DNA from: Tepidamorphaceae bacterium
GTDB lineage: Bacteria; Pseudomonadota; Alphaproteobacteria; Rhizobiales; JAKSCL01
Length of the DNA: 64,000 bases
Assembly: GCA_028289445.1 (NCBI GenBank)
Contig: JANQPO010000012.1
Coordinates: 62,001-126,000, forward strand
Reading direction: 5' to 3'
Shown: positions 28,146 to 51,647 of the stretch, in pieces
Layout of the letters: the number at the start of each line of letters is the position of its first letter
How positions within the stretch are numbered: the stretch's first letter is position 1
Translations under genes and position numbers: made by a program
Notes under the pieces: generated by a model
Database searches by the model: none
Seen by the model: only the letters and a program-made list of their open reading frames with translations
Told to the model about the DNA's origin: nothing

Positions 28146-30089
28146 TCAGATGTCGAGTTGATAGACCTGGATCGCTGCTTCGCGACCAGGAACCCTGTAG
28201 GAGGAGAGCTGGGTCGTGCCGACGGTCTCCGGCAGGCAGGCATGCGTTTCGACACTCATGAGGACAATGCACTCGGCATCCGGCGCCACCACTTTGCCAA
28301 GCTCCTCGATCCGCTGACCGGTGTTCACGGTATCGCCGACGATGGTGTAGTTCATGCGATCGCGGGCGCCAATGTTGCCGACGACAACGGGACCGGTGTG
28401 CAGCCCGATACGCAGCCGCACCGGCGGCTCGCCAATAGCGCGTCGCCGTTCGTTGTTGCTCGTAATCGCCTTTGCCATCGCGCTGGCCGCAGCGCAGGCC
28501 CTTTCCGCGTGATCGTCGAGCGGATCGGGCGCGCCCCAAAACGCCATCATTCCGTCGCCAAGAAACTTGTCCACCGTGCCGCTGTTTGCCTCGACCTCGG
28601 CGCACAAAATCGAAAAGAGCTCGTTTAGGTAGCTCGCCGTCTCGGCTGCGGTCATACGCTCCGATTGCGCGGTGAAGCCGGCGACATCGGTGAACATGAC
28701 GGTCAAAACACGCTCATGGGATCGTGCCGCCTCGTCGACGCCCCACTCGATTAGCCTTGAAACCAGCCGGCGTGGCACATAGGCCGCAAACGCCTTAAGC
28801 GTCGACACCATGCTGCTGAGCACGCTTGCGGTCTGGTTGAATTCGCGAAACCGCGACGGCGGAATAGGCTTCACATGGTCGAAGTCGAGCTTGGAGACGC
28901 TGACCGCCATACCGTTCAAATCAGCCACGAGTTTGCCGATACGCCGGCCGATCCAAAAGGCAATCAGCGTACCGATCGCCAGGAACCCGATACCGACCAT
29001 CGTCGACCCGAAAAGTCGGCGAATCTCATCGCTCACGTCCTCGCCCGGGAAATAAACGCCGACAATCCATGGCCGATCCGCATACGACCCAATCGCCGTC
29101 GTCATCATGATGTAGGTCTCGTCGCCAATCTCGACCGTACTGACCTCGACACCGGCCTCCGCGGCCGCCTCAAAGAGATCGTCGCCGGTGTCACGCTTCG
29201 GGTAAGCGACTAGAACCGGATCATCAAATTCTGCCAGAGGCACCGTTGCCGGCGGTCGCTCCTGCTGACCCAAGCCGCGCCCAGCCATGTCCGAGGACCC
29301 TCCCGGCGGGGGTTGAGCACCAGCTTCCGGTGTATACTCCTCAGCCACCAAGCTGCTTTCGGGCGAGCCCTCAGGCGGAGGAGGCGGGGCCAGGTTCGGA
29401 TGGGCCAGGACACGATCTCCCCCATCCAATATGAAGGCCGTCCCAGACCGCTCGCGGCTGATCTGCCGGACAAGCGCTGACATGCGCGGCAATGGCACCG
29501 CAGCGATAAGGTGGCCGACATGCTCGCCACCGACCACGAGCGCCTGCCCGACATTGGCATGAACAACGCCATTTTCCTCGATGAGCGTGCCCCAATGCGG
29601 CCGCCCATCCTTGGGGATCAGCTTAATCCCCTCGCGTATCTCGGGATTTTGGATCGTCGAGCGATCCGATCGGCCGAAGAGTGGCCCTTGGCGAAACACC
29701 CCACGCACGTTGTAATCAAGATCATAGGTCTCGATGACGACAACCATCCGGTTGGCGGCGATGGCGCCATGCAGGACTTCGCCGAAACCATCCTCGTCCG
29801 AGAGCGACAACTCCCCTTTCGAGATTTGCCCGGCAAGGGAGCGCACCGTCAATTCGACCGGCTCCAGATAGGCGTCGATCAGAAGCGTCAGCGATTCGAC
29901 CGTTTCCATCGATCGCGTATTGAGCAGCGAAAACGTATTGCGGACGTTAGCCACTACGGTGAGCGACAGAACCGCCAAGATCGACAATCCGGTGACCAGC
30001 GCGAAGGAGATGCTCAAAAGGCGCGCGATCGGCATGTCGCGCTTGGTCCGCGCGCGGCTTTCGGGCTTCATCGCCAAGCCGTCATCCAT
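28146..30089 (-). CDS. Receptor-type adenylate/guanylate cyclase (sensor-HAMP-cyclase)
   Basis: A 647-residue membrane receptor. A first membrane segment at about 24-48 and a second at about 345-370 flank a periplasmic Cache-like sensor, followed by a HAMP linker and a class III cyclase domain (about 450-630). Metal aspartates are in MFTDVAGFT and KFLGDGMMAFWG, and the nucleotide site in YTIVGDTVNTGQRIEE. The sensor domain contains a Pro/Gly-rich insert (about residues 230-270, with PPPPPEGSPESS and PPPGGSSDM). It should make cAMP in response to an extracellular ligand. The gene is divergent from the sulfotransferase gene, with only 34 bases between start codons. Confidence 0.88.
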   Translation of the reverse strand: MDDGLAMKPESRARTKRDMPIARLLSISFALVTGLSILAVLSLTVVANVRNTFSLLNTRSMETVESLTLLIDAYLEPVELTVRSLAGQISKGELSLSDEDGFGEVLHGAIAANRMVVVIETYDLDYNVRGVFRQGPLFGRSDRSTIQNPEIREGIKLIPKDGRPHWGTLIEENGVVHANVGQALVVGGEHVGHLIAAVPLPRMSALVRQISRERSGTAFILDGGDRVLAHPNLAPPPPPEGSPESSLVAEEYTPEAGAQPPPGGSSDMAGRGLGQQERPPATVPLAEFDDPVLVAYPKRDTGDDLFEAAAEAGVEVSTVEIGDETYIMMTTAIGSYADRPWIVGVYFPGEDVSDEIRRLFGSTMVGIGFLAIGTLIAFWIGRRIGKLVADLNGMAVSVSKLDFDHVKPIPPSRFREFNQTASVLSSMVSTLKAFAAYVPRRLVSRLIEWGVDEAARSHERVLTVMFTDVAGFTAQSERMTAAETASYLNELFSILCAEVEANSGTVDKFLGDGMMAFWGAPDPLDDHAERACAAASAMAKAITSNNERRRAIGEPPVRLRIGLHTGPVVVGNIGARDRMNYTIVGDTVNTGQRIEELGKVVAPDAECIVLMSVETHACLPETVGTTQLSSYRVPGREAAIQVYQLDI

Positions 30090-30123: not shown

Positions 30124-31233
30124 ATGACCGTGCCGAACGAAACCAGACCGCCAATCCCCGAGGCCGAATTGAAGCGCAGTCTTCGCGACGCGAAGCTCGC
30201 CGAGTGGTTCGCTGACGCCGAACCGCAAATAGTGCTTATCGGTCATCGGCCCTTGCTCGAATCGCTCGGCCTCTCTTCCGGCGAACATATACTACTCTCA
30301 ATGACTGATGTTGCGACTCCGGACGGCCAAAACAAGGCCCGAACCGCTCCGGCGGTATTCGTTCTCGATCTGGACGACGAGCCGGTGGCGATTCACGCAT
30401 TGAAGGCGAGCCTTGGCCATGACCGTGTCTACGGACTGATCGGCGACCTAGTCGTTGCACGAACGCTCGGTCTGGAACCCGGAGACGACCGCGAAGCACT
30501 GCGTTGCGCCCAATCACCGGACAGCTGTTTCGCGGTTTTGTGCACGGCGCGCTCCGGCAGCACATGGTTCTGCCATCTGCTGCAAAACACCGGCGTCCTC
30601 GGGCACCCGAGCGAGCATTTGCGGCCAACCATCGTCTTCCTCACGCGGCATGCCACCCGGTTTGGGTTCTCGATTGTCGATTGGACGGAGACCCTGATCC
30701 GCGCGAAGGCGAAGAACGGCGTATTCGGGACCAAAGTCATCGACAATTTCGTCGACGACATCCTGCCGGCCTTGTCGACCGACGACAGGAGGCGGCTTGA
30801 GCAGCTTCTATCGGGCTTTCGGTTCATCCATTTCGAGCGGCGCGACAAGGTTGCGCAAGCCGTCTCGAAGTTCATGGCGACCAAAAGCCATGTTTGGCAC
30901 CTTCGCACCACCGATGCCGCGCGGGCGTATCGGGAGAAGAAAGCGCAGGTTGAATACGACGGCTCGGCTTTGAACAAGATTCATGATGGACTAAATAAAA
31001 ATGAAGATCGTTATCGTCATTTCCTTGCGTCGACCGGCGCTCAAGCTCTTCATCTGACCTACGAAGATGTCCTTGCCGATCCCGCACCCGCCATTCGCGC
31101 CGTTGCCGAATTCCTCCTAGATGACGTCCCGGACAGTTTACCGATCGTCCATGAGCGCTATTTCCCCATGGCCGATGATCTCAACGCGGCCTTCGCAGAG
31201 CGGTTGCGCCTCGAATACGATCTCGGCGGATAG
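30124..31233 (+). CDS. Stf0-like sulfotransferase
   Basis: A 369-residue cytoplasmic protein. Residues from about 137 on match the Stf0 group: the PAPS phosphosulfate-binding loop CTARSGSTWFCHLLQ, the GHPSEHL segment and the FERRDKVAQAVS helix that contacts the 3'-phosphate. Stf0 itself sulfates trehalose in mycobacteria; the acceptor here is unknown. The first 130 residues are not Stf0-like and I do not recognise them. The downstream FkbM methyltransferase begins 12 bases later, so the two enzymes probably decorate the same glycan, lipid or peptide. Confidence 0.83.
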   Translation: MTVPNETRPPIPEAELKRSLRDAKLAEWFADAEPQIVLIGHRPLLESLGLSSGEHILLSMTDVATPDGQNKARTAPAVFVLDLDDEPVAIHALKASLGHDRVYGLIGDLVVARTLGLEPGDDREALRCAQSPDSCFAVLCTARSGSTWFCHLLQNTGVLGHPSEHLRPTIVFLTRHATRFGFSIVDWTETLIRAKAKNGVFGTKVIDNFVDDILPALSTDDRRRLEQLLSGFRFIHFERRDKVAQAVSKFMATKSHVWHLRTTDAARAYREKKAQVEYDGSALNKIHDGLNKNEDRYRHFLASTGAQALHLTYEDVLADPAPAIRAVAEFLLDDVPDSLPIVHERYFPMADDLNAAFAERLRLEYDLGG

Positions 31234-31245
31234 AAGTCGCCCGCA

Positions 31246-32010
31246 ATGTCCGACCCCGATACCGCCCTCCTTCAATCCGACGATCCCTATGATCTGATCG
31301 GCCAACTCAATGGAGGCGCCTATCGGGTCTATCAGCGTGACGGCTATCGCATTTGGCTGAATGTGTCTGAATCGCGCGACATGGCGAAACGGGCGGTCGG
31401 CCGCTATGAGCCGGATAAGTTCGCCGCGCTGGACGAGCAGTTGAAAGCCGGCCAAACCGTCTTCGACATCGGCGCCAACAAGGGCGACTTCGCTCTGTTC
31501 GCCGCTTCGCGCGTGGGGTCCACAGGCTGCGTCGTCGCCTTCGAGCCGCACCCGGACAATGTCGGATGGTTGCGAAAATCGGTTGCCTTGAACGGTTTTC
31601 AGACTGTGACGATCAAAGAGACAGCGCTTGCCGACACTGCCGGTGAGGCGCCGCTTCACATCGGGCCGAAATCCGGGCATCACGCCCTCGAACCGCTGTC
31701 GCGCGATCGCGGAACGATCACCGTCACCGTCGACACACTCGACCGGGTCTGGCACGAGTTGCGACAGCCGACTATCGACATCGTCAAGATCGACGTTGAG
31801 GGCGCCGAAGACCGGGTCATCGCCGGCGGTCGGGCCATGTTGGCAGAATGCCGGCCGGTGATTTTTCTCGATGTACATGACATCGGCTCAGATCGCCTCA
31901 CAGCGCTGAATGCAACGCTTTCCGATCTTGGCTACACCATCGCCGCGCTCGACGATCCCGACATCGCCACGCTTCTGCCCGATAAGGACTACATCCTTAT
32001 CCCGCAATGA
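31246..32010 (+). CDS. FkbM family methyltransferase
   Basis: A 254-residue SAM-dependent O-methyltransferase. Motif I is VFDIGANKGDFALFAAS, the acidic motif AFEPHPDNV follows, and the FkbM-specific post-core VKIDVEGAE is present. FkbM proteins methylate sugar or polyketide hydroxyls and are common in glycan loci. It follows the sulfotransferase at a 12-base spacing and is likely co-transcribed with it. Confidence 0.9.
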   Translation: MSDPDTALLQSDDPYDLIGQLNGGAYRVYQRDGYRIWLNVSESRDMAKRAVGRYEPDKFAALDEQLKAGQTVFDIGANKGDFALFAASRVGSTGCVVAFEPHPDNVGWLRKSVALNGFQTVTIKETALADTAGEAPLHIGPKSGHHALEPLSRDRGTITVTVDTLDRVWHELRQPTIDIVKIDVEGAEDRVIAGGRAMLAECRPVIFLDVHDIGSDRLTALNATLSDLGYTIAALDDPDIATLLPDKDYILIPQ

Positions 32011-32056: not shown

Positions 32057-34273
32057 ATGGGGTTCACACTTGCGACCATGCGTGCAGAAATCCAAACAGA
32101 GCCGGACCCGATCCCGGCGAACGATGCGCCCCGGGAGACACGCATGACGTCACAGGTCCAAGGTGTCGATATGGGCGTGTTCGGCGATATCCGGCTGGCG
32201 GCGGCGCGTGACCTGCCGGACCTGCGCGACCAGTTCTATCGCCCGACCTTGAGCCCGCTTCGTCCTGTCCGCGAACGCGACGATATCCTGTTCTATCCGC
32301 GCAAGAAGGCGCTGCGGATCGCCATTCGCGATCAAGGATCGACGGGCACATGCACCGGCCAGGCCCTCGCGTCGCTCATCGACATCATGCGCCTTCGCCG
32401 CGCCAACGGAAACGCTCTCGAACCCGCTAGCGCGATGATGCTTTATCGCCAGGCGAAGGAATATGAGCTTGGTCGCAACCCGGATCGCGGTCTCTTGAGT
32501 CTCCGCTCCGTCATCAAGGCCTTTTACCACTACGGTGTATGCGCCGACGGCCGCATCCATGCGCCAGGCCAATCCAAGGCCAAGGCAACGTATGAAAGCC
32601 GGCACTGGAGCTTCCTGGATGACGCAGGGCAGCCGATCGACGCCGAGACGATTGACGAAAATCTGACGGTCGCGCGCGCCAAATCCGCGCGCGGCGTCCC
32701 CCTCGGTGCCTATTACCGCATCGCGCCGCGCCTCAACGACTACCACGCCGCGCTCAACGAGGCCGGCGCTATTCTGGTATCGGCCTATATCCACGATGGC
32801 TGGACGCACAAATCCGTTGCCGCCAAGACGGATCGCAAAGGCAGCGGCGAGATCGACTACCAGGCGATCGACCCCCTCGGCGCCCATGCCTTTGTGATCA
32901 TCGGCTACAACGACGAAGGCTTTCTGGTCCTCAATTCCTGGGGCGAGACCTGGGGCGGCTACCGCGGCTATCCGGGTATCGCTCTGTGGCGCTATGGCGA
33001 CTGGGCCGACTCCATCCTCGACGGATGGATCCTGCGGCTTGGCGTGCCGACGAAGAACGCCTTTCAGTTCTCCATCGGGGAACAGGGTCTGGGCAGTTCA
33101 GACGGGCCAATCGAGGCAGCCGGCGACAGTCGGCGCGGTGGCTCGACGCCCTGCTTTGAGATTCTCGGCCACTTCGCGCATCTCGATGACGGCGCGCACG
33201 TCGAGCGCGGCGCCTACGCGACTTCGCCGATCGCGGTCAAAGAGACCATTTCCTACCTGCACGGCACCGATGCGAAGCTCTCCGACGCCCAGACCATGGC
33301 AAAGCTCTCAGCCGCCGACGGCGAACGGGCGGTCCTCGCCAAAAAACCCGGCGCGACGAAGGGCTATTCGGGCGTGCTGCTTTGGATCGGTGGCAGCCTG
33401 GAGAGCATGAAGGACGCCGTGACCCTTGCCGTTGGCCGCAAGGATCGGATCAAGGCGGAACAGCTCTATCCTTACTCCATCTTCTGGTGTTCCGACTTCG
33501 TCGAACAAACGAGCCGCGTCCTGGCCCGCATGTTCGACGACGTGGTGGAGCGGATCGGCCGGACAAGCCCCGACCTCGACACGGTGATCGAGAACGCCTG
33601 TCGCGGCGTCGGGCGGGCGTTTTGGCGCGATATCGAGACGGGCGCCCGCAAGGCGAACTTTCCCGGCAGCCATGGCGCGGAGATCCTCGACGGCATTTTG
33701 GGTCTGAAGCGATTGAGCGTCCATGTGATCGTCGACGGCGCCGGCGCGGTCTTCTTGTCCGAATATCTCAAGCGCGTTTACGCGGTCGAAGGCGAACGGG
33801 CGGCGTTTCCGGATCGTATCCGTTCAATCGACTTCATCACACCGGCCATTCGGCTGATCTCGGCTGAAAAGGAAGCGCACTGGCTGCGATTCTTCGCTGG
33901 CTTCGACAAGGGCGACGCCGACCGCCGGGCGCGGATCTGGCTGCCCTCGGCGGAGATCGAGGACCGAATACAGGTCGACGTCTACTCGAAATCGATCCTC
34001 CATCTGGTCGCCAACGCCTTTGAAGAGCCCCTGAAAAAGCCCAACACCCGGCGCGGGCTTAGAGGTCCCGCCCTGCTGGGCATGGCCAAGGAGACATCCG
34101 GTCTCAAGCGCGGTGCGATTGCCAATTTGGACATCAGGACGATTCCGACCGATGCACGCAAATCCGACCCATTGACCCATCAACAGCTCACGGAAAGCCC
34201 GGACCTTTTCAAGGCGATCCTCGAGGACATTTCCCTTCAGATGAAGGGAACACGCGCCACACGTGGCAGTTGA
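32057..34273 (+). CDS. Papain-like C1 peptidase with large uncharacterised C-terminal domain
   Basis: A 738-residue protein from ATG 32057. An alternative ATG at 32144 has a better ribosome-binding site (GGGAGA). The peptidase domain (about 85-320) shows all four catalytic positions: Q93 and C99 in DQGSTGTC, H277 in GAHAFVIIGYN and N293 in NSWGETWGG. It lacks a signal peptide, so it should act in the cytoplasm. Residues about 370-738 form a second region; phrases such as GVLLWIGG and IVDGAGAVFLSEYL suggest an alpha/beta fold, but I do not recognise a family. It is the first of several peptidase genes on this strand. Confidence 0.85.
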   Translation: MGFTLATMRAEIQTEPDPIPANDAPRETRMTSQVQGVDMGVFGDIRLAAARDLPDLRDQFYRPTLSPLRPVRERDDILFYPRKKALRIAIRDQGSTGTCTGQALASLIDIMRLRRANGNALEPASAMMLYRQAKEYELGRNPDRGLLSLRSVIKAFYHYGVCADGRIHAPGQSKAKATYESRHWSFLDDAGQPIDAETIDENLTVARAKSARGVPLGAYYRIAPRLNDYHAALNEAGAILVSAYIHDGWTHKSVAAKTDRKGSGEIDYQAIDPLGAHAFVIIGYNDEGFLVLNSWGETWGGYRGYPGIALWRYGDWADSILDGWILRLGVPTKNAFQFSIGEQGLGSSDGPIEAAGDSRRGGSTPCFEILGHFAHLDDGAHVERGAYATSPIAVKETISYLHGTDAKLSDAQTMAKLSAADGERAVLAKKPGATKGYSGVLLWIGGSLESMKDAVTLAVGRKDRIKAEQLYPYSIFWCSDFVEQTSRVLARMFDDVVERIGRTSPDLDTVIENACRGVGRAFWRDIETGARKANFPGSHGAEILDGILGLKRLSVHVIVDGAGAVFLSEYLKRVYAVEGERAAFPDRIRSIDFITPAIRLISAEKEAHWLRFFAGFDKGDADRRARIWLPSAEIEDRIQVDVYSKSILHLVANAFEEPLKKPNTRRGLRGPALLGMAKETSGLKRGAIANLDIRTIPTDARKSDPLTHQQLTESPDLFKAILEDISLQMKGTRATRGS

Positions 34274-34371
34274 CCGATGGCTAGGCGTCGCAACCTGTCA
34301 TGCTATCGTCAGCCGAAGGGGCAATGGTTGGGTGGGCCAGACAACAACGAGCCGCATGAGGAAGCACGATA

Positions 34372-36207
34372 ATGGCCAAGAAAATCACCCTTGACGAACT
34401 CTACGAAAAGCTCGCGGACCCGAACGTTCCCGAAGAAGAGCTGCGCGCCTATTTCGACGTCGACATCGCGGCATCGACGGCTTTCGACCCCCGCTTATCG
34501 GTGAACACCCGATCCGTCCAGATCCCGGATACGCCGGCCGGTCGGGCGCGGTCCGGCCAGCTTTTGAACACCGTCAACTGGGCCTCCCGCATGCGGCGGC
34601 GCTCCGCGTTCCACCGCAAGATGTCGAGCGGTAACTACAAGGGCCCGGTTATCGTGTCGGAAGGCGACAGCTGGTTTCAGTATCCCATCAAACTGACCGA
34701 TGTGATCGATCATCTGTCGCGCGATTTCGCGATTTTGAGCCTCGGCGCCGCAGGCGACACCATGGCCAACATGATCAAGCGCGCCGAATACATGCGGGCC
34801 ATCGAACAAACGAATGCGGCGGTGCTGCTGTTTTCGGCCGGCGGCAACGATTTGGTCGCCGACGGCAATCTGGCCACGCATCTCAAGCCCTTCGATCCGA
34901 ACCTGACGCCCGTCGAACATCTCCTGCCGAGTTTCGACCGCCTCGTTGAGTCCGTGGTTCAGAAATACGACCGCATCTTCCGGCAAGTCTCGTCGAAATT
35001 CCCCAAGCTTCATATCCTTTGCCACGGATATGACTATGCGATCCCGGACAAGGGACCCTGGCTCGGCAAGCCGATGATTTCCCGGAGCATCGAGGACGCA
35101 AAGGTGCAAAAGGCCATCGCCCGGGAGATGATGGAGCGCTTCAATCGGTCGCTGAAGGCGCTCGCCGGCCGCTATGGCCAGGTCACCTATGTCAACAATC
35201 GCGGCATCGTCAAAGACACGCGCTGGGCCGACGAACTGCACCCGAACGACGAGGGGTATGGCGCCGTCGCGGCCGGCTACAAGAAGATCATCAACAAGCT
35301 GACCGGCCAGCCCCGCGGACGCAGCGCCGTTCGCCGGTCCGCGCCGGCGGCCAAGGGCCGCTCCCTCCACCTCGGGCTCAATTTCCTCGATCCCAACCAC
35401 TATGGCGGCTGGGACGGCGAATTGCAGTCAGCCGAGTTCGATGCGGAAGACATGGAGGCGCTTGCCAAGGACATCGGCTACAAGACCAAAATCCTCAAGC
35501 GCAACAAAGTGACTCGCGCCGCCGTCCTAAGCGAACTCGACCGCGCCGCGCGCGACTTGAAGGCCGGTGACATCTTCTTCGTGACCTATGCCGGGCATGG
35601 CGGCCAGGTGCCGGACTTTAACGCGGATGAGGAAAACGACCGCACCGATGAGACCTGGTGCCTGTTCGACGCTCAGTTGATCGACGATGAGCTGGCGGTG
35701 AAGTGGTCGAAGTTCAAGCCCGGCGTGCGGATCGTCGTGGTCTCCGACTCCTGCCACTCGGGTTCGGTCATCCGCGCCATGACGCCGCGCACTACGGTTC
35801 CCGTCGAGAGCGACGACCCGGCCACCGCCGGATTCCGGCCGCGCGAGATGCCGTGGCGCGTTGCTGCTAGAACCGCGCGACAGAACCGCGCGCAATACCG
35901 TGCCATCTCGCGTTCGCTCGGACCGATCAATGAAGAGCTACTGTCGCGCGAACTCAACAATCCCATCGCCTGTAGCGTCCGGCTCCTCTCCGGCTGCCAG
36001 GACAATCAGGTGTCGATGGACGGACCCGGCAATGGTGCGTTCACGTCGGCGCTTCTGACGATCTGGGACGAAGGCCGGTTCGAGGGCAATTACGACCGGT
36101 TCCATCGCGAGATCGTCGCGCAGATGCTGCCGACACAAACGCCAAACCACTGGTCGATCGGCACACGCGATCCGTTATTCGACGGCCAAAGGCCGTTTGC
36201 GATCTAG
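34372..36207 (+). CDS. SGNH hydrolase-caspase fusion protein
   Basis: A 611-residue protein with two enzymatic domains. Residues about 90-310 are an SGNH/GDSL esterase: S100 in EGDSW, the glycine block LGAAGD, N159 in GGND, and D287/H290 in DELHP. Residues about 330-605 are a C14 caspase-like peptidase, with H409 in TYAGHGGQ and C461 in VVSDSCHSGS, the metacaspase/orthocaspase dyad. No signal peptide or membrane segment is present. The gene starts 98 bases after the C1 peptidase gene. Prokaryotic caspases typically cleave after Arg or Lys and often act in regulated self-damage or defence; coupling one to an esterase in one chain is uncommon. Confidence 0.88.
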   Translation: MAKKITLDELYEKLADPNVPEEELRAYFDVDIAASTAFDPRLSVNTRSVQIPDTPAGRARSGQLLNTVNWASRMRRRSAFHRKMSSGNYKGPVIVSEGDSWFQYPIKLTDVIDHLSRDFAILSLGAAGDTMANMIKRAEYMRAIEQTNAAVLLFSAGGNDLVADGNLATHLKPFDPNLTPVEHLLPSFDRLVESVVQKYDRIFRQVSSKFPKLHILCHGYDYAIPDKGPWLGKPMISRSIEDAKVQKAIAREMMERFNRSLKALAGRYGQVTYVNNRGIVKDTRWADELHPNDEGYGAVAAGYKKIINKLTGQPRGRSAVRRSAPAAKGRSLHLGLNFLDPNHYGGWDGELQSAEFDAEDMEALAKDIGYKTKILKRNKVTRAAVLSELDRAARDLKAGDIFFVTYAGHGGQVPDFNADEENDRTDETWCLFDAQLIDDELAVKWSKFKPGVRIVVVSDSCHSGSVIRAMTPRTTVPVESDDPATAGFRPREMPWRVAARTARQNRAQYRAISRSLGPINEELLSRELNNPIACSVRLLSGCQDNQVSMDGPGNGAFTSALLTIWDEGRFEGNYDRFHREIVAQMLPTQTPNHWSIGTRDPLFDGQRPFAI

Positions 36208-36253
36208 AGCATGTTCCGAAAAGTGCGTGCGGTTTTCGGACAAGATCATGCTC
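36207..36253. repeat. GAGCATG palindromic intergenic repeat
   Basis: GAGCATG at the left and CATGCTC at the right enclose inner arms CCGAAAA and TTTTCGG. It begins at the last base of the caspase stop codon. The same layout, with changes, is found at 10201-10244. Such units are common intergenic elements in Hyphomicrobiales genomes. Confidence 0.7.
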
Positions 36254-36266
36254 AAAATCAAAGAGA

Positions 36267-36308
36267 TAGAGCATTCTCGGTAACTCAACTTTCACCGAGA
36301 ATGCTCTA
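36267..36308. repeat. TAGAGCATTCTCGGT inverted repeat
   Basis: A perfect 15-bp inverted repeat, arms 36267-36281 and 36294-36308, with a 12-base loop. It directly follows the GAGCATG unit and precedes the next gene by about 50 bases. It may act as terminator or RNA-processing site between the caspase and S8 parts of the strand. Confidence 0.75.
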
Positions 36309-36350
36309 AAGACGGGGCATCTCAGGGGAAACGGGGGCGAGAAGGAGCGA

Positions 36351-36356
36351 AGGAGG
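36351..36356 (+). promoter_or_regulatory. Strong Shine-Dalgarno AGGAGG that fixes a TTG start
   Basis: AGGAGG lies five bases before TTG 36362. No in-frame ATG gives a similar arrangement, so the small gene that follows very probably begins with this TTG. Confidence 0.75.
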
Positions 36357-36361
36357 GCCCA

Positions 36362-36646
36362 TTGGCCTCCGAGGTGATCACGCTTGTCGCCGTCTTGTCG
36401 GCGGGGCTTGCCGCCGACATCGCTGACACACCTGACCAGCCGACCTCGGCGTTCGAGCGCACGCTCGACGCCCACCGTGCAACGCTGGCGCCGACCCGCT
36501 ACGCCAGCCGCGACGACGACGGTAGTCTCTACGTTACCGTCACCGTCACCAATGGCGGCAACGCCGACACCCTTCAATCCGCTCTCACCCAATTGCCCGG
36601 TGTGCTTGCCGTTTACCGCAAGCCGCCGGACGCCCTGCCCGATTAG
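36362..36646 (+). CDS. Small protein resembling a subtilisin pro-domain/I9 inhibitor
   Basis: A 94-residue protein starting at TTG, supported by an AGGAGG site. Its N-terminus has a short hydrophobic stretch (about 3-19). The C-terminal half reads like a ferredoxin-like half: strand SLYVTVTVTNG, helix NADTLQSALTQLP, strand GVLAVYRKP. This is the pattern of peptidase-inhibitor I9 pro-domains that chaperone and inhibit subtilisins. It lies 31 bases before the S8 peptidase gene, so it could be a separately encoded inhibitor or chaperone. The family assignment is inference. Confidence 0.65.
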   Translation: MASEVITLVAVLSAGLAADIADTPDQPTSAFERTLDAHRATLAPTRYASRDDDGSLYVTVTVTNGGNADTLQSALTQLPGVLAVYRKPPDALPD

Positions 36647-36677
36647 GGCCAGTTCAACGTGAAAGGGAGACGCGACA

Positions 36678-38492
36678 ATGGCCAAACGACCCCGCAAACG
36701 CTCCGGTGGACGCGACGACGGTAATCCGCTTGAGGCGCCGCGTGAATTGATCGTCATGATGCGGCCACAGGCCGGCATGCGCGCCTCGCGATCGCGGCTT
36801 GAGTCCGCGACCGGCGCCACCGTGTCGGACATCCGCAAGATCCTAAAGGATGCCGGCGCCCATATGCTGCCCTTGTTCGGCTCCAACGAGGAGCGCGTCA
36901 TGGCCCGCTCGCAAGTGCAATCGGAGGCGGCGCAAATATCGCTGGAGGATCTCTCGGTCTACTACCGTGTTGCAGCGGACGACGACAAACTGGAGGGCTT
37001 GAGCGATAAGCTTCTCAAACAGGAACTGGTCGAAGCGGCCTATGTGAAACCGCCGGCAAGCCCGCCGATTGGACCGGCCGAGGAAGGCGAAGCCGATATC
37101 GGTATTCCCGAAGCGGCGGCGCCGACCACCGCCGGTTTCGAAGCGCGGCAAGGGTATCTCGATCCGCCGCCGGTCGGCATCGATGCACGCTGGGCCTGGA
37201 CCCAGGCGGGCGGCACCGGGCATGGTATCAGCATCATCGACATTGAGGGTGCTTGGCGGTTCACGCACGAGGACCTTTTGACGGCTCAGGCCGGCGTTGT
37301 CGGCGGCACTGAGTTCGACGATATCCGCTGGCGTAATCACGGCACCGCCGTGCTGGGCGAATACTCCGGCGACCGCAACCCATTCGGCGTGACCGGCATT
37401 GCGCCAGACGCTGTCGCCATGGCGGTGTCCATAGGCGGCCTTGGCTCATCCGCCGCGCTCAACATGGCGGCGGCCAGGCTCCAGGCGGGCGACATCATCC
37501 TGATCGAGCTGCATCGCCCTGGCCCGCGTTTTGACTTCATGTCGCGATGGGATCAGCGCGGCTACATCGCGATGGAATGGTGGCCGGATGACTATGTGGC
37601 CATTTTGAACGCCACGCGGCGCGGCATCATCGTGGTCGAGGCCGCCGGCAACGGTGCGGAAAACCTCGATGACGACATCTACGAGACCCGACCGCCCTGG
37701 TTCCCGGCGTCCTGGCGCAATCCTTTCCGCCGGGTCAATCGCGATTCGGGCGCCATTGTCGTCGGTGCCGGCGCACCGCCGGCTGGAACGCATGGTCGCG
37801 ACCATGGCCCGGACCGCTCGCGCCTCGGGTTTTCAAACCATGGCGACATCGTCGACTGCCAGGGCTGGGGACGCGAGGTGACGACCTGCGGCTATGGCGA
37901 CCTGCAAGGCGGTCCGGACGAAGACCTCTGGTATACGGACCGTTTCTCCGGCACCTCTAGCGCGTCGCCGATCGTCGTCGGAGCGGTGGCCGGCGTCGTT
38001 TCCATGGCGGCAGCGCGTGGCAAGCCGATCCCAACGCCGGCGCGCCTGCGCAACTGCCTACGCACGACCGGTTCGCCGCAACAGGACGCGCCCGGTCGCC
38101 CGGCGTCCGAGCACATTGGCAACCGGCCCGACATGCAGGCGCTCGCCACTTGTCTCTACGGCACCAAGTCTTTCCTGAAAGACGCGAAGGACACCAAGGA
38201 AGGCAAGGAGAAGGAAGCCAAAGAACACAAGGAGCACATCAAGGACTTCAAGGATGTCCGCAAGGATCGAAAGGAGAAGGACGGTAAGGAGGTGATGGAA
38301 GGTCCGGTCGCGCGCGGGGCGCCTAGTCCAGCCGGTCCTGGCGATATCGAGTCCAGACTGGCAGCGCTAGAGGACACGATCGGTCAGCTCAGCCATTTCA
38401 TTTCAGGCGATCTGCGGCCCGACCTCGACGATGGCTCGGGCGGCAAGCACGACAAGGACGTGAAGGACACCGAGAAGCCGCGCGACCGGTGA
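36678..38492 (+). CDS. Subtilisin-like (S8) serine peptidase with charged C-terminal tail
   Basis: A 604-residue peptidase. The catalytic triad is D188 (SIIDIEG), H221 (RNHGTAV) and S427 (SGTSSASP), with the oxyanion Asn at N325 (AAGNG). Residues about 20-125 form a pro-domain-like region. The tail (about 500-540) is extremely rich in Lys, Glu and Asp, followed by a short coiled-coil-like helix (IESRLAALEDTIGQL) and a second charged end. There is no signal peptide, so an intracellular location is likely. The gene overlaps the next by GTGA. Maturation might be controlled by the small I9-like protein encoded just upstream. Confidence 0.9.
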   Translation: MAKRPRKRSGGRDDGNPLEAPRELIVMMRPQAGMRASRSRLESATGATVSDIRKILKDAGAHMLPLFGSNEERVMARSQVQSEAAQISLEDLSVYYRVAADDDKLEGLSDKLLKQELVEAAYVKPPASPPIGPAEEGEADIGIPEAAAPTTAGFEARQGYLDPPPVGIDARWAWTQAGGTGHGISIIDIEGAWRFTHEDLLTAQAGVVGGTEFDDIRWRNHGTAVLGEYSGDRNPFGVTGIAPDAVAMAVSIGGLGSSAALNMAAARLQAGDIILIELHRPGPRFDFMSRWDQRGYIAMEWWPDDYVAILNATRRGIIVVEAAGNGAENLDDDIYETRPPWFPASWRNPFRRVNRDSGAIVVGAGAPPAGTHGRDHGPDRSRLGFSNHGDIVDCQGWGREVTTCGYGDLQGGPDEDLWYTDRFSGTSSASPIVVGAVAGVVSMAAARGKPIPTPARLRNCLRTTGSPQQDAPGRPASEHIGNRPDMQALATCLYGTKSFLKDAKDTKEGKEKEAKEHKEHIKDFKDVRKDRKEKDGKEVMEGPVARGAPSPAGPGDIESRLAALEDTIGQLSHFISGDLRPDLDDGSGGKHDKDVKDTEKPRDR

Positions 38493-39208
38493 TCCTCTTC
38501 CTCTGCCACCCAGGCGACGCCGTTGCCGTCTGGGTGGCCGACGGTTTAGCGGCGCGATTGGATGTGCCGGTCGAGGTGATCACGCTCGATGCGGTTCTTA
38601 CCGCGCCGCACGTTTCGCTCGCATTCGGATCGACTGAACGCCGAAGCCGTATCGAACTGGCGGATGGGCGGATCATCGACAGCGGCACCGTGACGAGCGT
38701 CGTCAATCGCCTTGCTGGCCTGCCGGACCGAGCGGCGGCGAACATCTCTCATGACGATCGTGCCTATGTGCACGAGGAACTCTACGCTTTCGTCCTTGCA
38801 TGGTTAGCGTCGTTCGACGGTGCGACGGTCAACCCTCCGCACGCGCGAGCGCTCTCCGGTCTGTGGCCGGATCCGTTGGCCCTTCGACATCTGGCGGCAC
38901 GCGCCGGGCTTCCAACCGACGCAGCTATCCTGGGCAACATGAAGCGCCTCGCGCCAGCCACTGCGCCAGCGGCAACGCTCGTCGTCTGTAACGGCCAGGT
39001 TTTCGGCCCATCCATCGACGACGAGATCGCAGCCGCGGCAGCGCGGGTGACGGCTGAACTGGGGTTACAGGTTCTGACCGTCGTCTTCGAGCATTCGTCG
39101 AGCGGCGCGCTCCGGTTTTCCCATGCCGATCCTCGCGGCGATTGGCGCATCGGCGGTCCGCCCATGCTCGACAGCCTTACCTCATGCCTGGACCGCGCGG
39201 CGTCATGA
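38489..39208 (+). CDS. Protein of unknown function coupled to an ATP-grasp enzyme (possible pre-ATP-grasp domain)
   Basis: A 239-residue protein with a GTG start in a GTGA overlap with the S8 gene, and an ATGA overlap with the following ATP-grasp gene. I do not recognise a family with confidence. The segment around SVVNRLAGLPDRAAAN and DRAYVHEELYAFVLAWLAS looks like the N-terminal substrate domain of MvdC/MvdD-type ATP-grasp peptide ligases, in which such a domain precedes the ATP-grasp fold. It may thus be a partner subunit or a degenerate ligase. Confidence 0.6.
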   Translation: MILFLCHPGDAVAVWVADGLAARLDVPVEVITLDAVLTAPHVSLAFGSTERRSRIELADGRIIDSGTVTSVVNRLAGLPDRAAANISHDDRAYVHEELYAFVLAWLASFDGATVNPPHARALSGLWPDPLALRHLAARAGLPTDAAILGNMKRLAPATAPAATLVVCNGQVFGPSIDDEIAAAAARVTAELGLQVLTVVFEHSSSGALRFSHADPRGDWRIGGPPMLDSLTSCLDRAAS

Positions 39209-40107
39209 TCGCGATCGCCGGTTATCCCGACGAAGCGCCCGTGCGGCTTGTGACTGAGGCGCTCGACGCCATCGGCGCTGCTCACATCACGCTCGATCCG
39301 CACAAGGCCTCGGCGATCGATCTGGACGTGAGGATCGGTGGCAGCGGCGATGGCGGTGCGATCACCGGTCGGCTTATGACCGATGACGCAACGATTGAAA
39401 TCGAGCACATCAAAGGCGTCTATTTCAGATCTCTGGGCACTGATCCCGCGCCCGCGCTCGCTCGATTTGGCGCCTTGATGGACGTCTTGCCCGCTCGCGT
39501 GCTCAATCGCCCGGCGGCCATGGCCTCGAATGCCTCGAAGCCCTACCAGAGTCTGGCGGCACGCGCCTGCGGTTTCGCGATCCCCGAAACGCGTGTCACC
39601 AACGACCCGCTGACCGCACGCGCCTTTATCGAAGCCGCCTGGGCTGCAGGACATGATGTCGTCTACAAGTCGATGAGCGGTGTCCGATCGATCGTTCAGA
39701 CTTTCAGCGAACACGACTGGTCCCGGTTGATTCATCTCGGAACCTGCCCCGTACAGTTTCAACACCGGATCGCCGGCGACGACATCCGCGTCCATGTCAT
39801 CGGCCGAACGGTTCATGCCGCCCGCATCCAGTCATCGGCCACCGATTACCGCTATGCCGAACGGCAGGGGAGCGAGGCGGCTCGACTCGCGCCTATCGAC
39901 CTTCCTATCGAGGACGCACGGCGGTGCGTTGCTTTGGCAGAAAGTCTCGACCTGCCGCTCGCCGGGATCGACCTGCGCCGTGACCGGACGGGCGTGCTCT
40001 ATTGTTTCGAGGCGAACCCCTCGCCGGCCTTCAGCTACTACGAAACGGCAACGGGCCTGCCGATTGCCGCGGCTATCGCCAGCTATCTCGTTGGAAGCAG
40101 CGCATAA
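39205..40107 (+). CDS. RimK-like ATP-grasp ligase
   Basis: A 300-residue ATP-grasp enzyme. The core includes GFAIPETRVTNDP (linker), VVYKSMSGVRSI (glycine-rich nucleotide loop with the phosphate-binding Lys), PVQFQHRIAGDDIRVHVIG and the Mg2+-binding end GIDLRRDRTG with FEANPSPAFSYYE. Such enzymes join a carboxylate to an amine or alcohol using ATP, as in RimK (glutamate ligation to a protein) or in graspetide maturases. The ATG at 39205 overlaps the previous stop by four bases. With a peptidase operon upstream, a protein or peptide substrate is likely, but not shown. Confidence 0.85.
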   Translation: MIAIAGYPDEAPVRLVTEALDAIGAAHITLDPHKASAIDLDVRIGGSGDGGAITGRLMTDDATIEIEHIKGVYFRSLGTDPAPALARFGALMDVLPARVLNRPAAMASNASKPYQSLAARACGFAIPETRVTNDPLTARAFIEAAWAAGHDVVYKSMSGVRSIVQTFSEHDWSRLIHLGTCPVQFQHRIAGDDIRVHVIGRTVHAARIQSSATDYRYAERQGSEAARLAPIDLPIEDARRCVALAESLDLPLAGIDLRRDRTGVLYCFEANPSPAFSYYETATGLPIAAAIASYLVGSSA

Positions 40108-40181: not shown

Positions 40182-40790
40182 ATGGGTGATCGGGCGACGC
40201 ATTCGTTTGCCATGCGGCCATTGGCCAGTAAGGACATCGAGAAGCTGGCGGCATGGTTTCAAGACCTCAACGATCTTGCCATGTTCGATCGATCGGCGCC
40301 GATCCCTGTCGGCCCTGAGGCTGTCGAAAAGCTATGGAAGGATGACCTCGACAGTGAACCGCCGCGCACGTCGTATTGGTATATCGGCGAAGATGACGAC
40401 GGCGAGCCGCTCGGCATCTGTGGCATTCGAGATATCAATTATGTCCACGGCGACGGAACGATTCCCTTGTTTGTGGCGAAGGCTGCGCGGGGCCGGGGCG
40501 TCGGCATGGAGATGGGTGCCCGGATGCTGAACCTGGCGTTCGATAACTTGCGGCTAAGGCGCGTGAGCACGTTTCATCGTGTCGACAACAAGGCGACCGA
40601 AGTGCTCATCAAAAAGTTGGGCTTCTCCCATGAAGGCGTGGTGCGCCAAGCCTGGTTTACCGACGGCAACCATATCGATATCGCGCTGGCCGGAATCCTG
40701 CAGGAAGAGTGGGCCGCGCATCGCGATACCCTTCCGAGCCTAGCGACAATGGACGGACAACGTCACTTCAAAGCGACAATCAATGGATAA
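40182..40790 (+). CDS. GNAT family N-acetyltransferase
   Basis: A 202-residue GNAT acetyltransferase of the RimJ/RimL type, with the acetyl-CoA loop in VAKAARGRGVGMEMGARML and the NKATEVLIKKLGFSHEG motif that ends the domain. These enzymes acetylate protein N-termini, amines or antibiotics; no substrate is apparent. A weak -35/-10 pair (TTGACG 40134-40139, TAACGA 40158-40163) and a GGGAGAG ribosome-binding site precede the ATG, so it may be transcribed independently. Confidence 0.88.
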   Translation: MGDRATHSFAMRPLASKDIEKLAAWFQDLNDLAMFDRSAPIPVGPEAVEKLWKDDLDSEPPRTSYWYIGEDDDGEPLGICGIRDINYVHGDGTIPLFVAKAARGRGVGMEMGARMLNLAFDNLRLRRVSTFHRVDNKATEVLIKKLGFSHEGVVRQAWFTDGNHIDIALAGILQEEWAAHRDTLPSLATMDGQRHFKATING

Positions 40791-40828
40791 GACGGGGCAG
40801 GCGTTGCAGGTGGACGAGAGGCGACCAG

Positions 40829-42598
40829 GTGACTGACGACAGCGGCACAGTCAGGCGCCGTCTCGGCGCGGTTCTGTTTGCCGACATGGTTAATTATTCG
40901 CGCATGATGGGCCAGGACGAGCTGGGCACGCGCGCGGCCGTAAAGTCGCGTGTGACGATTTTCGAGGATCTGTGCGCGGCCCATTCCGGCGAGATCGTTC
41001 AGTTGACCGGCGATGGCTTGTTTTTGTTGTTCGACAGCGCCGTCGATGCCGTCTCGTTCTCCATGGACATCCAGAAGCGGATGGCGACCGAGAATGAAGT
41101 CCTTCCCGAAGAACGCAGGGTTGTGTTTCGGATCGGCATCAACCTCGGTGAGATCATTTTCGATGAGCGCGGCCCGACAGGCGAGAGCGTGAACATTGCC
41201 GCCCGGCTCGAACCGCTGGCTTTGCCGGGCAATGTCTGCATTTCGGGCGCCGTTTACGAACAGGTCCGCACCCGACTCACCTATGGCTATGAATATCTCG
41301 GCGAACAGCGCCTGAAGAACATCGCCGATCCGATCGACGCGTTTCAGGTGCATGAAGATGCTACCGGCGCGACGATGACAACCGGCCGCCGCCGCGTCGT
41401 CTCGCGGCAGTCGCGCGGCAATGCGCTCGGCAACGACCTCTCCCTCGTCGTCCTGCCCTTCAAGTTTCAAGGCAGCGAAACATCGGAGAGCTGGTTCGCC
41501 GACGGCTTGACGGAAGACATCACCACCAATTTGTCGCGCTTTCACAGCTTCTCGGTGATCTCACGCACATCCGCCTACGTCTTCGCCGATCGCAATCTGC
41601 CACCCCAAGACGCCGCCCGAGAGCTGGGCGCCCACTACGTCGTCGCCGGAACCGTGCGCAAGGCCGGGCCGCGGATTCGTATTGCCATTCAGCTGCAGGA
41701 CGCCGTCAGCGACCGGTTGATCTGGGGCGAGCAATACGATCGGGTCATCGAAGACATCTTCGATCTGCAGGACGAAATCACACAGATCATCGTCGCCGCG
41801 ACGGCGGTTCAGATCGAGACCACAGAGCGCGAACGGCTGCGTTCGGTGCCACCGGCCAGTCTCCTCGCCTACGGGTTTGTTCTACAAGGCCAGCAGCACA
41901 TCTTCCGCTACACCAAACCGGAAGTCAGCAGCGCCCGATCGCTCTACGAGGCAGCGCTTCAATCCGATCCACGCTATGCCCGAGCGCTGGCGGCCAAGTC
42001 CCGCACGTTCAATCTCGACTGGCGCTACGATTGGTCGGACGATCCTGACCACGCGCTCGACACCGCGCTTGACCTGGCGATACGGGCGATCGAGATCGAC
42101 CAAACCGACGCCCGTGGCTTCGGCGAACTCGGTTTCGCCCATCTCTACCGCAAGGAACACGACGCCTCGATAAGCGCCTATCGCCGAGCGCTGTCGCTCA
42201 ATCCCAATGACGCCGACCTGATGTCGGACATGGCCGACGCGTTGGCCCATTCGGGTGAATCGGAAAAAGCCGTCGAGCTTCTGCAAAAGGCAATGCACCT
42301 AAACCCGTTCTATCCGGACCAATATCTCTGGCACCTCGCCGGCGCCTACTACAATCTCTATCGCTATGAAGACGCGGCGCAGACGATTCTATCGATGCAG
42401 AACCCGACGGAGGGTCGGCGCATCCTAGCGGCAAGCTATGCTCAGCTTGGGCGCATGGAGGAAGCGCGCGAGGCCGCCGAGCAGGTCCGAAAGGCTCATC
42501 CCGAATTCGATCTGGACAAATGGGCGGCCGTCCAGCCGGATAAGCTGGAAGAAGAACACGAGCGCTTCAAGGAGGGCCTGCGCAAGGCGGGGCTCTGA
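40829..42598 (+). CDS. Adenylate/guanylate cyclase with TPR domain
   Basis: A 589-residue cytoplasmic protein from GTG 40829. Residues about 10-180 are a class III cyclase domain (FADMVNYSRMM, TGDGLFLLFDSA, GESVNIAARLEP). Residues about 210-350 are a domain often following cyclase or winged-helix domains in rhizobia (LVVLPFKFQG, AHYVVAGTVRKAG, LIWGEQYDR). Residues about 360-585 contain tetratricopeptide repeats for protein contacts. Such cyclases respond to a partner bound at the TPR part. The gene ends the plus-strand run and is convergent with the pentapeptide-repeat gene. Frames reading farther upstream from 40709 overlap the GNAT gene and look non-coding. Confidence 0.87.
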   Translation: MTDDSGTVRRRLGAVLFADMVNYSRMMGQDELGTRAAVKSRVTIFEDLCAAHSGEIVQLTGDGLFLLFDSAVDAVSFSMDIQKRMATENEVLPEERRVVFRIGINLGEIIFDERGPTGESVNIAARLEPLALPGNVCISGAVYEQVRTRLTYGYEYLGEQRLKNIADPIDAFQVHEDATGATMTTGRRRVVSRQSRGNALGNDLSLVVLPFKFQGSETSESWFADGLTEDITTNLSRFHSFSVISRTSAYVFADRNLPPQDAARELGAHYVVAGTVRKAGPRIRIAIQLQDAVSDRLIWGEQYDRVIEDIFDLQDEITQIIVAATAVQIETTERERLRSVPPASLLAYGFVLQGQQHIFRYTKPEVSSARSLYEAALQSDPRYARALAAKSRTFNLDWRYDWSDDPDHALDTALDLAIRAIEIDQTDARGFGELGFAHLYRKEHDASISAYRRALSLNPNDADLMSDMADALAHSGESEKAVELLQKAMHLNPFYPDQYLWHLAGAYYNLYRYEDAAQTILSMQNPTEGRRILAASYAQLGRMEEAREAAEQVRKAHPEFDLDKWAAVQPDKLEEEHERFKEGLRKAGL

Positions 42599-42747: not shown

Positions 42748-43380
42748 CTAGTCGGAGGCATCGCCCGAAAGCTTGGCGCCGGAAACCTTAGCACCGGAGA
42801 CCTTGGCACCGGAGACTTTCGCGCCGGAAACCTTGGCGCCGGAGACTTTCGCGCCGGCAACCTTGGCACCCGACAGTTTCGCGCCGGCAACGCTCATGCC
42901 GCCAAGACCGAGCGCAACCAGTACTTCTTCGAACGTCCCGGATTGCACATCGAGGCGGATGGTGAAATCGGACTGGTCGTAGGACCAAACGCGCATATCG
43001 TCGGAGAACTTCACGTCGCGCGTTGCAAGCCCGGTGATCGACATGCCAGCATTGGAGAGTTTTGCGCTGGCACCCGATCCTGTCGTTTTGGTGGCCGGCT
43101 CGCCATCGCCATGGACGAGGAACAGCGACGGCGTCGGCATCTCGAAATAGGTGCCCTCAAAGCCGAACCCGTAAATACGAGCGAATTTGGCCATTTGCAC
43201 CGTTTTCCTGGCGCTGCCCGACCCGGTGGTCTTGGTCATGGCAAGCTGCGATTCCAACAATGCGTTGCCGCCGATGGTGTCGGCATCGGAAGGACTGTGC
43301 GATCCTGCGCCGACCGACAAATCTTCGACAACACGGCCGAACAACAATACGTTGGATGCGCTCAGTAGTGTTTCGGCCAT
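42748..43380 (-). CDS. Protein with eight C-terminal (A/S)GAK(V/L) pentapeptide repeats, candidate substrate of the YcaO operon
   Basis: A 210-residue protein of unknown family. The first 160 residues contain two Thr/Gly/Ser-rich segments (MTKTTGSGSARK and ATKTTGSGASAK) that resemble each other. The C-terminus has eight tandem 5-residue units, AKLSG, AKVAG, five AKVSG, AKLSG, in sequence order read backwards, then DASD. The pattern fits the A-(N/D)-L-x-G pentapeptide-repeat beta-helix, with Lys at the Asn/Asp position. Alternatively, a repeated Ser/Gly-rich tail beside YcaO-TfuA genes could be a repeated modification site. No signal peptide. It is the last gene of the minus-strand YcaO unit. 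Confidence 0.75.
   Translation of the reverse strand: MAETLLSASNVLLFGRVVEDLSVGAGSHSPSDADTIGGNALLESQLAMTKTTGSGSARKTVQMAKFARIYGFGFEGTYFEMPTPSLFLVHGDGEPATKTTGSGASAKLSNAGMSITGLATRDVKFSDDMRVWSYDQSDFTIRLDVQSGTFEEVLVALGLGGMSVAGAKLSGAKVAGAKVSGAKVSGAKVSGAKVSGAKVSGAKLSGDASD
42763..42882 (-). repeat. Eight tandem 15-bp coding repeats
   Basis: Eight 15-base units encode the (A/S)GAK(V/L) pentapeptides. Units differ at synonymous positions (GCC/GCG/GCT, AAG/AAA, GTC/GTT, TCC/TCG), so the peptide pattern is kept while the DNA has diverged. This argues against recent slippage. Confidence 0.9.
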
Positions 43381-43449
43381 TACTTGATCCCGCCTCTTAG
43401 AAGTATCGATCGTTTATTTGATCGGAATACCATATTCGTATCCCTCCGA

Positions 43450-44709
43450 TTAATCCAGCGGAACGACAGTCCGGACCGAGTTCGCGTGGCTATCCTTGTC
43501 CAGCGGCGCCAGTTGCGGCCCGACGCGGACATCGCCGATATCGCGCATCTTGAAGTTCCCGAATGAGAGGCGCTGAAAGCGACCGTCGCTAAGCTCCGCG
43601 TCGACATCGAGAAACGCCTCGGCGACATCGACGTAATCGAGATAATCGGCATCGAGCCGCTGCCACGTCTCGGCCAGATAGGTGCCCATCACGTCGCGTG
43701 CATGCATGAGCGCCTGTTTGAAGCCGTGCGGGTGTTCGGCGAAGGCCTCATCGAACAGACGCTGCATCACCGGGTGATAATCGGGCGACGACAGAAGCTG
43801 ATCCGAAAGCTCCTCCACGTCGGGTGAGATCATACCTTCTTCCATGAGCACTTCGTGGAAGATGTCGACGAAGATATCGAAGAATGCGCCGGTCAGCGGT
43901 TGCGAAAGCTTGTGCTCCTTCACCCACCCCTTCGCAAAGGCCGACAGGCGAACATCGTTCGCCGCGATCCGGATTTGCTCGTTGTCCGACAGCTCCGCCA
44001 TGCGGTTCGCCGCGTTCAGCGTGTAAAGATTGCCACGGGTCGACAGCAGCAGATGATCGATGACGGAGTTGAAGTGAAGCGACGAGATCAGCGCGACCAG
44101 ATCGGCGGCGGACTCGTGAAAGCCGAAGTATTCGCCGATCGCCGCTTGTGGGTCCGGAATGCCGACCTCCGAGTAGATGATCGCATGGCCGACCTCGTGG
44201 GCAATGACGTCGAAATTGAGACTGTAGGGTTTGAAATCGTCGTCCTTTTGATGAGCGCCGACTTCGATGAAGCCATAGCCCGAATAGGCGTTGTCGAGCG
44301 AGTGGAGGATAGACAGCTCGACACGATCGTAATGCCGGGCGCTGTGCCAGGGTATCTCGCGGCCGAAGTATCCCTCCCAGATATCGAGGACGAAGCGAAC
44401 GATGCCGAACAAGTGCGCCGCCTCGAATTGCGGTGTGCCCGGTTCCAGGTAATCGAAGTGCCCCTCCTCGTCCGGTTCGGCGGGAAGCAGGATATCGCCG
44501 TGCCACGGCGGCATTGGCGCGTCCTCGTTGCCAGTCGGCGCGATGCCGTAGGGCGCCGGCTTGTCGACTGGAAAGACGGTATACATGCGATGGTCGGCCG
44601 GTCCCGGCATCAGGCTGCCGGCGGGCGACGACACATAGACGGTCTCCGGCTCGTCGAAGGCGTCAATGAACGACGGCTGGGGGAAAATCTTAAACCGCGT
44701 TCCCGTCAT
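43450..44709 (-). CDS. HExxH zinc metallopeptidase (gluzincin-like)
   Basis: A 419-residue protein from ATG 44709, which overlaps the TfuA gene end by 20 bases and has an AGGTCCAGG site upstream; the frame stays open farther, but that part lies inside TfuA. Residues H171-E172-H175 (AHEVGHAII) with E199 in FHESAAD form the M4/M36-like zinc site, on helices typical of gluzincins. There is no signal peptide or pro-domain, unlike secreted thermolysins, so it is probably cytoplasmic. Lying between the TfuA gene and the pentapeptide-repeat gene, it could process the modified product or its leader. Confidence 0.83.
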   Translation of the reverse strand: MTGTRFKIFPQPSFIDAFDEPETVYVSSPAGSLMPGPADHRMYTVFPVDKPAPYGIAPTGNEDAPMPPWHGDILLPAEPDEEGHFDYLEPGTPQFEAAHLFGIVRFVLDIWEGYFGREIPWHSARHYDRVELSILHSLDNAYSGYGFIEVGAHQKDDDFKPYSLNFDVIAHEVGHAIIYSEVGIPDPQAAIGEYFGFHESAADLVALISSLHFNSVIDHLLLSTRGNLYTLNAANRMAELSDNEQIRIAANDVRLSAFAKGWVKEHKLSQPLTGAFFDIFVDIFHEVLMEEGMISPDVEELSDQLLSSPDYHPVMQRLFDEAFAEHPHGFKQALMHARDVMGTYLAETWQRLDADYLDYVDVAEAFLDVDAELSDGRFQRLSFGNFKMRDIGDVRVGPQLAPLDKDSHANSVRTVVPLD

Positions 44710-47190: not shown

Positions 47191-47202
47191 GACGCGTATG
47201 CC

Positions 47203-50379: not shown

Positions 50380-50384
50380 GGTGG

Positions 50385-51554: not shown

Positions 51555-51647
51555 AGTAATCACCCTGCGGGGCAATAGGCCCCGAGCTTTAGCCCTAACT
51601 TAGCGTCTTTTTTGCAGGTTAACAGCCTTGCGGGCGGATTCACTGTC

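Follow-up and report, generated by a model that had tools for sequence, protein, structure and literature searches.

The DNA analysed here is a window of 64,000 nucleotides from a Tepidamorphaceae bacterium (contig JANQPO010000012.1), and all coordinates are positions within this window, numbered from its first letter. On its plus strand lie genes for a papain-like C1 protein, an SGNH–caspase fusion, a small I9-like protein, an S8 subtilase and two proteins of the ATP-grasp kind, termed graspN and grasp (Table 1). The original prediction for this region, made from the sequence before the comparisons described below, had read these genes as one plus-strand array acting in a proteolytic cascade. 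All of the genes it listed are present where it had placed them, the three different peptidase folds (papain-like C1, caspase and S8) are there, and no signal peptides were seen on the peptidases upon inspection by eye. As for the single array, the genes do share a strand, but the inverted repeat at 36267-36308 parts the C1 and caspase genes from the small, S8, graspN and grasp genes. To judge from gene neighbourhoods, it is the latter four genes (36362-40107), and not the three peptidases, that form the conserved unit. Within this cassette, graspN–grasp probably staples the tail of its upstream neighbour.

Table 1. Features of the region, with their positions in the window and, for some, the basis of assignment
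Feature	Position	Strand	Basis
C1 papain-like protein with degenerate alpha/beta-hydrolase domain	32057..34273	+	motif alignment; 0/80 ATP-grasp loci
SGNH + caspase fusion	34372..36207	+	Pfam
Inverted repeat of 15 bp, perfect, separating the caspase gene from the small gene	36267..36308	.	
Small I9-like protein, 94 aa; putative propeptide-type inhibitor/chaperone of the S8 protein	36362..36646	+	
S8 subtilase, 604 aa: N-terminal I9-like domain, catalytic domain, C-terminal tail; predicted cargo and substrate	36678..38492	+	
Lys/Glu/Asp-rich C-terminal tail of the S8 protein (aa 496-604); predicted ATP-grasp substrate	38163..38489	+	
Tail signature FISGDLRPDL (aa 574-583); predicted recognition element	38397..38426	+	
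Lys-x3-Asp motifs KHDKD and KDVKD (aa 590-597 of the S8 protein); predicted isopeptide sites	38445..38468	+	
graspN, truncated pseudo-ATP-grasp partner, 239 aa	38489..39208	+	profile, model, Foldseek
grasp, ATP-grasp ligase of the graspetide-synthetase family, 300 aa	39205..40107	+	profile, ATP/Mg residues

The conserved unit and its proteins

The neighbourhood conservation analysis that the original prediction had suggested gave a divided answer: the peptidase trio does not co-occur, whereas the four-gene unit is conserved. A search based on three aligned ATP-grasp proteins (A1) collected 80 loci from Pseudomonadota, Actinomycetota, Bacteroidota, Acidobacteriota, Cyanobacteriota, Myxococcota, Nitrospirota, Planctomycetota, Verrucomicrobiota, Chloroflexota, Gemmatimonadota, WOR-3 and one archaeal bin. 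graspN lies 5′ of grasp in 79 of them, and in the 80th (L134) the contig begins too close. The module is uncommon, occurring in about 1% of the genomes sampled in three groups; a further genome sample held no module besides the window's own. Neither a second ATP-grasp pair nor a second tailed protein was found in this genome, so that the module is single-copy. A mobile or phage origin was considered and set aside, with one distant match each in plasmid and phage collections and one viral contig.

Overlaps of 4 bp join S8 to graspN (GTGA) and graspN to grasp (ATGA), which suggests coupled translation. The tight coupling of the ATP-grasp pair had been pointed out in the original prediction and is borne out by this overlap, while only the second gene, grasp, is catalytically complete and the first is a truncated homologue. 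The two proteins are related by profile comparison with hhalign (P 98.4, E 6.3e-15). The AF2 model of graspN has a pLDDT (predicted local distance difference test) of 94, and its top Foldseek matches are MdnB, MdnC, PruB, AMdnB and PsnB. The closest solved relative of grasp by profile is PsnB (7drm, 2e-44), and the protein groups with PsnB, CdnC and MdnB/C; its ATP/Mg residues K155, D256, E269 and N271 are invariant in 48 sequences. graspN and grasp probably form a heterodimer.

The small gene is real and conserved: among L099-L178, a further 15 S8-type loci have it in front of S8, and so does L053. Its product carries an invariant Y..P...P at the C-terminus. The original designation of this protein as I9-like is supported by its profile kinship to the N-terminal domain of the S8 protein (hhalign P 98.2, E 4.5e-14) and by a predicted ferredoxin-like fold (pLDDT 82), for which Foldseek returned generic ferredoxin-like matches and nothing more specific. 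Because it adjoins a tail-less S8 in L053, the small protein is tied to S8 and not to the tail. It is a free-standing relative of the subtilase pro-domain and plausibly inhibits S8. Fold and profile similarity are common to the small protein and to subtilase I9 propeptides or stand-alone I9-type inhibitors, from which it differs in having no Pfam I9 match and in that its inhibitory action is putative.

The S8 protein matches Pfam PF00082 (7.1e-9), and the motifs of the catalytic Asp, His, Asn and Ser can be read in its sequence (DIEGAW, NHGTA, AAGNG and GTSSASP). Proteins 48-60% identical to it adjoin graspN–grasp in about 20 loci. At L105, on the same contig as L095, the S8 protein is without about 150 residues including the catalytic Ser and retains its tail; this shortening is either a real deletion or an assembly error.

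Tails of the upstream neighbours and their predicted stapling

The tails share a layout of Lys/Glu/Asp repeats, then a short helix-like stretch, then F-[IV]-x3-5-R-P-[DE]-L, of which F-[IV]-x3-5-R-P was scored as the motif. Among the 79 loci with upstream DNA, the gene immediately upstream of graspN carries the motif in 78 (66/69 by gene chaining plus 12 by frame scan). In the controls it was found in 0/79 graspN proteins and in 3/44 of the next genes further upstream, and the background is 2/625 for the last 90 residues of non-module neighbouring open reading frames (ORFs). Five later loci, outside the motif derivation, all contain it (5/5). An alignment of 54 otherwise unrelated cargo proteins leaves just three columns without variation, F574, R580 and P581. 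The tails and the tail-only proteins had no match among NCBIfam or Pfam models.

The cargo in front of the tail is diverse. Pfam assigns it to S8 in 15 loci, to NAL1-like trypsin in 7 and to M6 in 4, with kelch, lectin, immunoglobulin (Ig), S-layer and DUF6519 among the further classes, and 11 loci lack any cargo, the protein being tail-only. The cargo class switches at least 11 times on the ATP-grasp tree, and S8 homologues without the ligase, one of them 63% identical, have no tail. Since the motif is constant, the cargo is swapped or absent and S8 proteins without the ligase are tail-less, the pattern of conservation indicates that the tail, and not the cargo, is the ligase's partner. With its interchangeable cargo, graspN–grasp is best regarded as machinery that modifies the tail of whichever protein is encoded next to it upstream. 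The original idea of an ATP-grasp enzyme modifying substrates thereby survives in a sharper form, in which the likely substrate is the S8 protein's own tail. Two variants of the arrangement were observed. At L104:5637-9177, two tailed proteins (S8 and mannose-lectin-like) lie upstream of one graspN–grasp pair; at L186, on the reverse strand, the tail is of an Acidobacteriota type with KKREPD/KKLEPD instead of KE repeats, and the FI..RP motif is kept.

The same cargo data bear on a Makarova-type explanation, proposed for branches 7 and 8 in PMC8939145, by which the peptidases cut another cellular protein and so supply or mature a peptide for the ligases, S8 being a processing enzyme and not a substrate. 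This is unlikely here: many upstream partners are not peptidases according to Pfam, 11 are tail-only, nearly all bear the tail motif, and ORF clustering of the 80 loci found no other small conserved precursor near graspN–grasp.

What the pair may do to the tail is suggested by the stretch that follows the motif. Lys-x3-Asp occurs in 37 of the 47 tails that continue past it, against a shuffled expectation of 12.7; in the same extensions the i+3 spacing is found in 4 and the i+5 spacing in 0. The extensions with Lys-x3-Asp span at least eight phyla. CorB, a TIGR04187 ligase, makes a Lys-Asp isopeptide at KxxxD of corallotide, as established by nuclear magnetic resonance (NMR) and mutants (PMC13097080). 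From this enrichment and the CorB chemistry we infer Lys-Asp and perhaps Lys-Glu staples; for the former, the tail in the window offers KHDKD and KDVKD. Lys-Asp/Glu isopeptides thus probably form in the tail, which is itself the likely substrate of graspN–grasp.

In the proposed mechanism, the S8 subtilase would bear a tail composed of Lys/Glu/Asp repeats, a helix ending in FI-x3-RPDL and a short end with Lys-x3-Asp, while the small protein would restrain the protease. graspN, a pseudo-enzyme apparently derived from an ATP-grasp ligase, and the active ligase grasp would work as a pair, recognize the FI..RP element and spend ATP on joining Lys side chains to Asp/Glu four residues further on, giving a stiff, stapled tail. 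Of this picture, the genes, the tail, the pairing and the exchange of cargo are shown by the sequences themselves. Candidate roles of such a tail are tethering, protection, controlled release and autoinhibition. A broader claim, that graspN–grasp is a general protein-stapling machine giving any FI..RP-tailed protein a covalent Lys-Asp/Glu ladder, can be put forward only tentatively.

The ligase could instead act like RimK and add Glu or other amino acids to the side chains or the C-terminus of the tail, with no internal cross-links. RimK relatives are the next profile matches of grasp and acceptors are abundant in the tails, but macrocyclases are its closest solved relatives and score far better, the tight Lys-x3-Asp spacing is explained by internal lactams and not by additions, and the C-terminal residues of the tails vary, which together make such a reaction improbable. 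Another possibility is that the tail is merely a charged spacer with a docking motif and that graspN–grasp acts on a different cellular protein. Single helices are often formed by K/E-rich stretches, and Lys-x3-Asp is missing in some tails, both of which count for a spacer. Against it stand the conservation of Lys-x3-Asp and the free-standing tail-only proteins that replace cargo in 11 loci, and we regard it as having little chance of being correct.

Several observations weigh against stapling by graspN–grasp. Lys-x3-Asp is not found after the motif in cyanobacteria, in several Acidobacteriota and in some tail-only proteins, so that one chemistry may not fit all lineages. Inside the K/E repeats, a spacing of 4 is enriched no more than one of 5 or 11; this statistic does not decide the matter, since triplet and longer repeats raise the counts at several spacings. 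The best NCBIfam match of grasp, TIGR04187, reaches 124 bits, far below the cut-off of 350, and the window's grasp sits on a long branch of the ATP-grasp tree. In addition, leaders of fuscimiditide-type graspetides are N-terminal in nature and have been made C-terminal solely by engineering (PMC13003496), and the 80 loci, collected by means of ATP-grasp patterns, lack phylogenetic independence.

The C1 and caspase genes and the flanking genes

The C1 protein scores 14.2 bits against Pfam C1, under the cut-off of 20.7, while its Cys, His and Asn-Ser-Trp-Gly motifs align with those of five relatives and mark it as papain-like. It also has a C-terminal alpha/beta-hydrolase-like domain that had been overlooked; this domain is degenerate, its motif at 33700-33780 reading VDGAGA against GHSAGS in relatives, and the nucleophile Ser is gone. 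In the neighbouring fusion protein, Pfam recognizes both SGNH (1.2e-11) and caspase (1.2e-20). A first contig scan with the caspase protein as query gave no match. Homologues of the SGNH half (38-41% identity) are present in 7 Roseobacter-type ATP-grasp loci, where the SGNH gene is divergent beside small–S8–graspN–grasp and fused to trypsin-like and EEP-nuclease-like parts. Taken by their sequences, the SGNH domain proteins are a swappable-effector family. The SGNH–caspase protein is probably a functional neighbour of the S8 module, and its gene is likely on a transcript separate from that of the S8 unit. Individual SGNH relatives at L049:9517-12024, L050:9203-10909, L051:9213-10997 and L100:3984-6710 are fused to amidase + M15, trypsin-like, M15 and trypsin + EEP nuclease partners, respectively.

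These genes had been joined in the original prediction to a cascade, in which C1, caspase, S8 and HExxH proteases serve death or defence and the ATP-grasp enzyme tags substrates. The genes are physically clustered, SGNH–effector fusions recur next to the S8 module, and at L063:6669-11299 a caspase is fused to the alpha/beta-hydrolase domain of the C1 protein and followed by an HExxH protein, itself distantly similar to that of the window. However, the C1, caspase–SGNH and S8 homologues are not found together in 100 genomes of the same order, where they occupy different locations, C1 and caspase are absent from 80/80 ATP-grasp module loci, and the hairpin lies between the C1–caspase half and the S8 unit. 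Since the peptidase genes do not co-occur, the outcome that the prediction itself had named as speaking against it is largely what was found for the trio. A known caspase conflict or defence system was also tried and rejected, as EACC1 scores 24 bits against a cut-off of 140 and the PADLOC match is weak; no sensor or defence genes were recognized. EACC1-associated caspases share the caspase His and Cys motifs with the protein at 34372-36207, which differs from them in being far below the family cut-offs and in being fused to SGNH and not to effector-associated domains. The cascade is therefore very unlikely. The SGNH genes beside the S8 module in 7 loci and the caspase fusion beside HExxH at L063 lend some support to a loose guild of mosaic hydrolases rather than a fixed cascade.

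Immediately 5′ of the C1 gene lie genes for a Stf0 sulfotransferase and an FkbM methyltransferase (30124-32010). Genes resembling class III nucleotide cyclases are found on either flank, at 28146-30089 on the minus strand, recognized by eye only, and at 40709-42598 on the plus strand, where Pfam also identifies tetratricopeptide repeats (TPRs). The minus-strand facing operon (42748-51575) encodes YcaO, TfuA, an HExxH protein, a pentapeptide protein and a resistance-nodulation-division (RND) efflux pair, and looks like a separate peptide-modifying cluster. Its HExxH protein, counted by the original prediction as a peptidase, is present at 43450-44949 but matches no Pfam family.

Relation to graspetide systems

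Graspetides provide the natural frame of comparison. The module encodes a ligase of the right family with intact ATP/Mg residues, and the co-encoded precursor appears in altered form, the FI..RP and Lys-x3-Asp motifs lying in a C-terminal tail. The module does not show the short precursor with N-terminal leader and C-terminal core; the tail mostly stands behind a folded cargo, and the motif follows the K/E repeats. Nor is there a conserved peptidase-exporter or other export gene, as ORF clustering of the 80 loci revealed no recurrent transporter family adjoining graspN–grasp. By ligase family and logic, the module is, as a prediction, a variant of the graspetide kind that works like graspetide biosynthesis. 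With the plesiocin and microviridin synthetases (PsnB, MdnB/MdnC) it has the fold and the ligase family in common, and it also resembles plesiocin in its repeated cores and microviridin in its paired ligases. Both systems differ in their small precursors with N-terminal leaders, and in microviridin each of the two ligases is active, while graspN is a truncated protein.

Corallotide (CorA/CorB, graspetide group 15; PMC13097080) is alike in its TIGR04187 ligase, in Lys-Asp isopeptides at repeated KxxxD and in its large substrate. It differs in having a stand-alone precursor, one ligase and an oxygenase, in being limited to Corallococcus, and in that no truncated partner or enzyme cargo has been described. 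Groups 32, 34, 35 and 41 of the 2026 graspetide survey may already list some of the tails as precursors, and some of the present loci might belong to group 32 (diverse proteases).

If the proposed stapling is true, ribosomal-peptide chemistry would extend to full-size enzymes through their tails, and proteins could be stapled by means of a simple genetic tag. The more general version would imply that enzymes, lectins and proteases in at least ten phyla bear a rigid tail made post-translationally, and that there is an as yet undescribed class of modification that acts on proteins and not on peptides. The proposal would also supply a substrate for a branch lacking one in the 2022 survey, together with a short signature that finds it, and would explain the assorted peptidases of that branch as interchangeable cargo. 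In branches 7 and 8, peptidases of unrelated families accompany ATP-grasp ligases and no precursor was found (PMC8939145); branch 8 also has a truncated ATP-grasp and is found in cyanobacteria too (PMC8939145). The cyanobacterial upstream protein of our collection bears the same tail signature. The branch 8 loci (PMC8939145), likened to the present ones by gene content and not by tree position, combine a ligase, a truncated inactive ATP-grasp and assorted peptidases, as here. They differ in interpretation: there, the peptidases were suggested to supply peptides (PMC8939145), whereas the substrate proposed here is the tail that the upstream protein itself carries.

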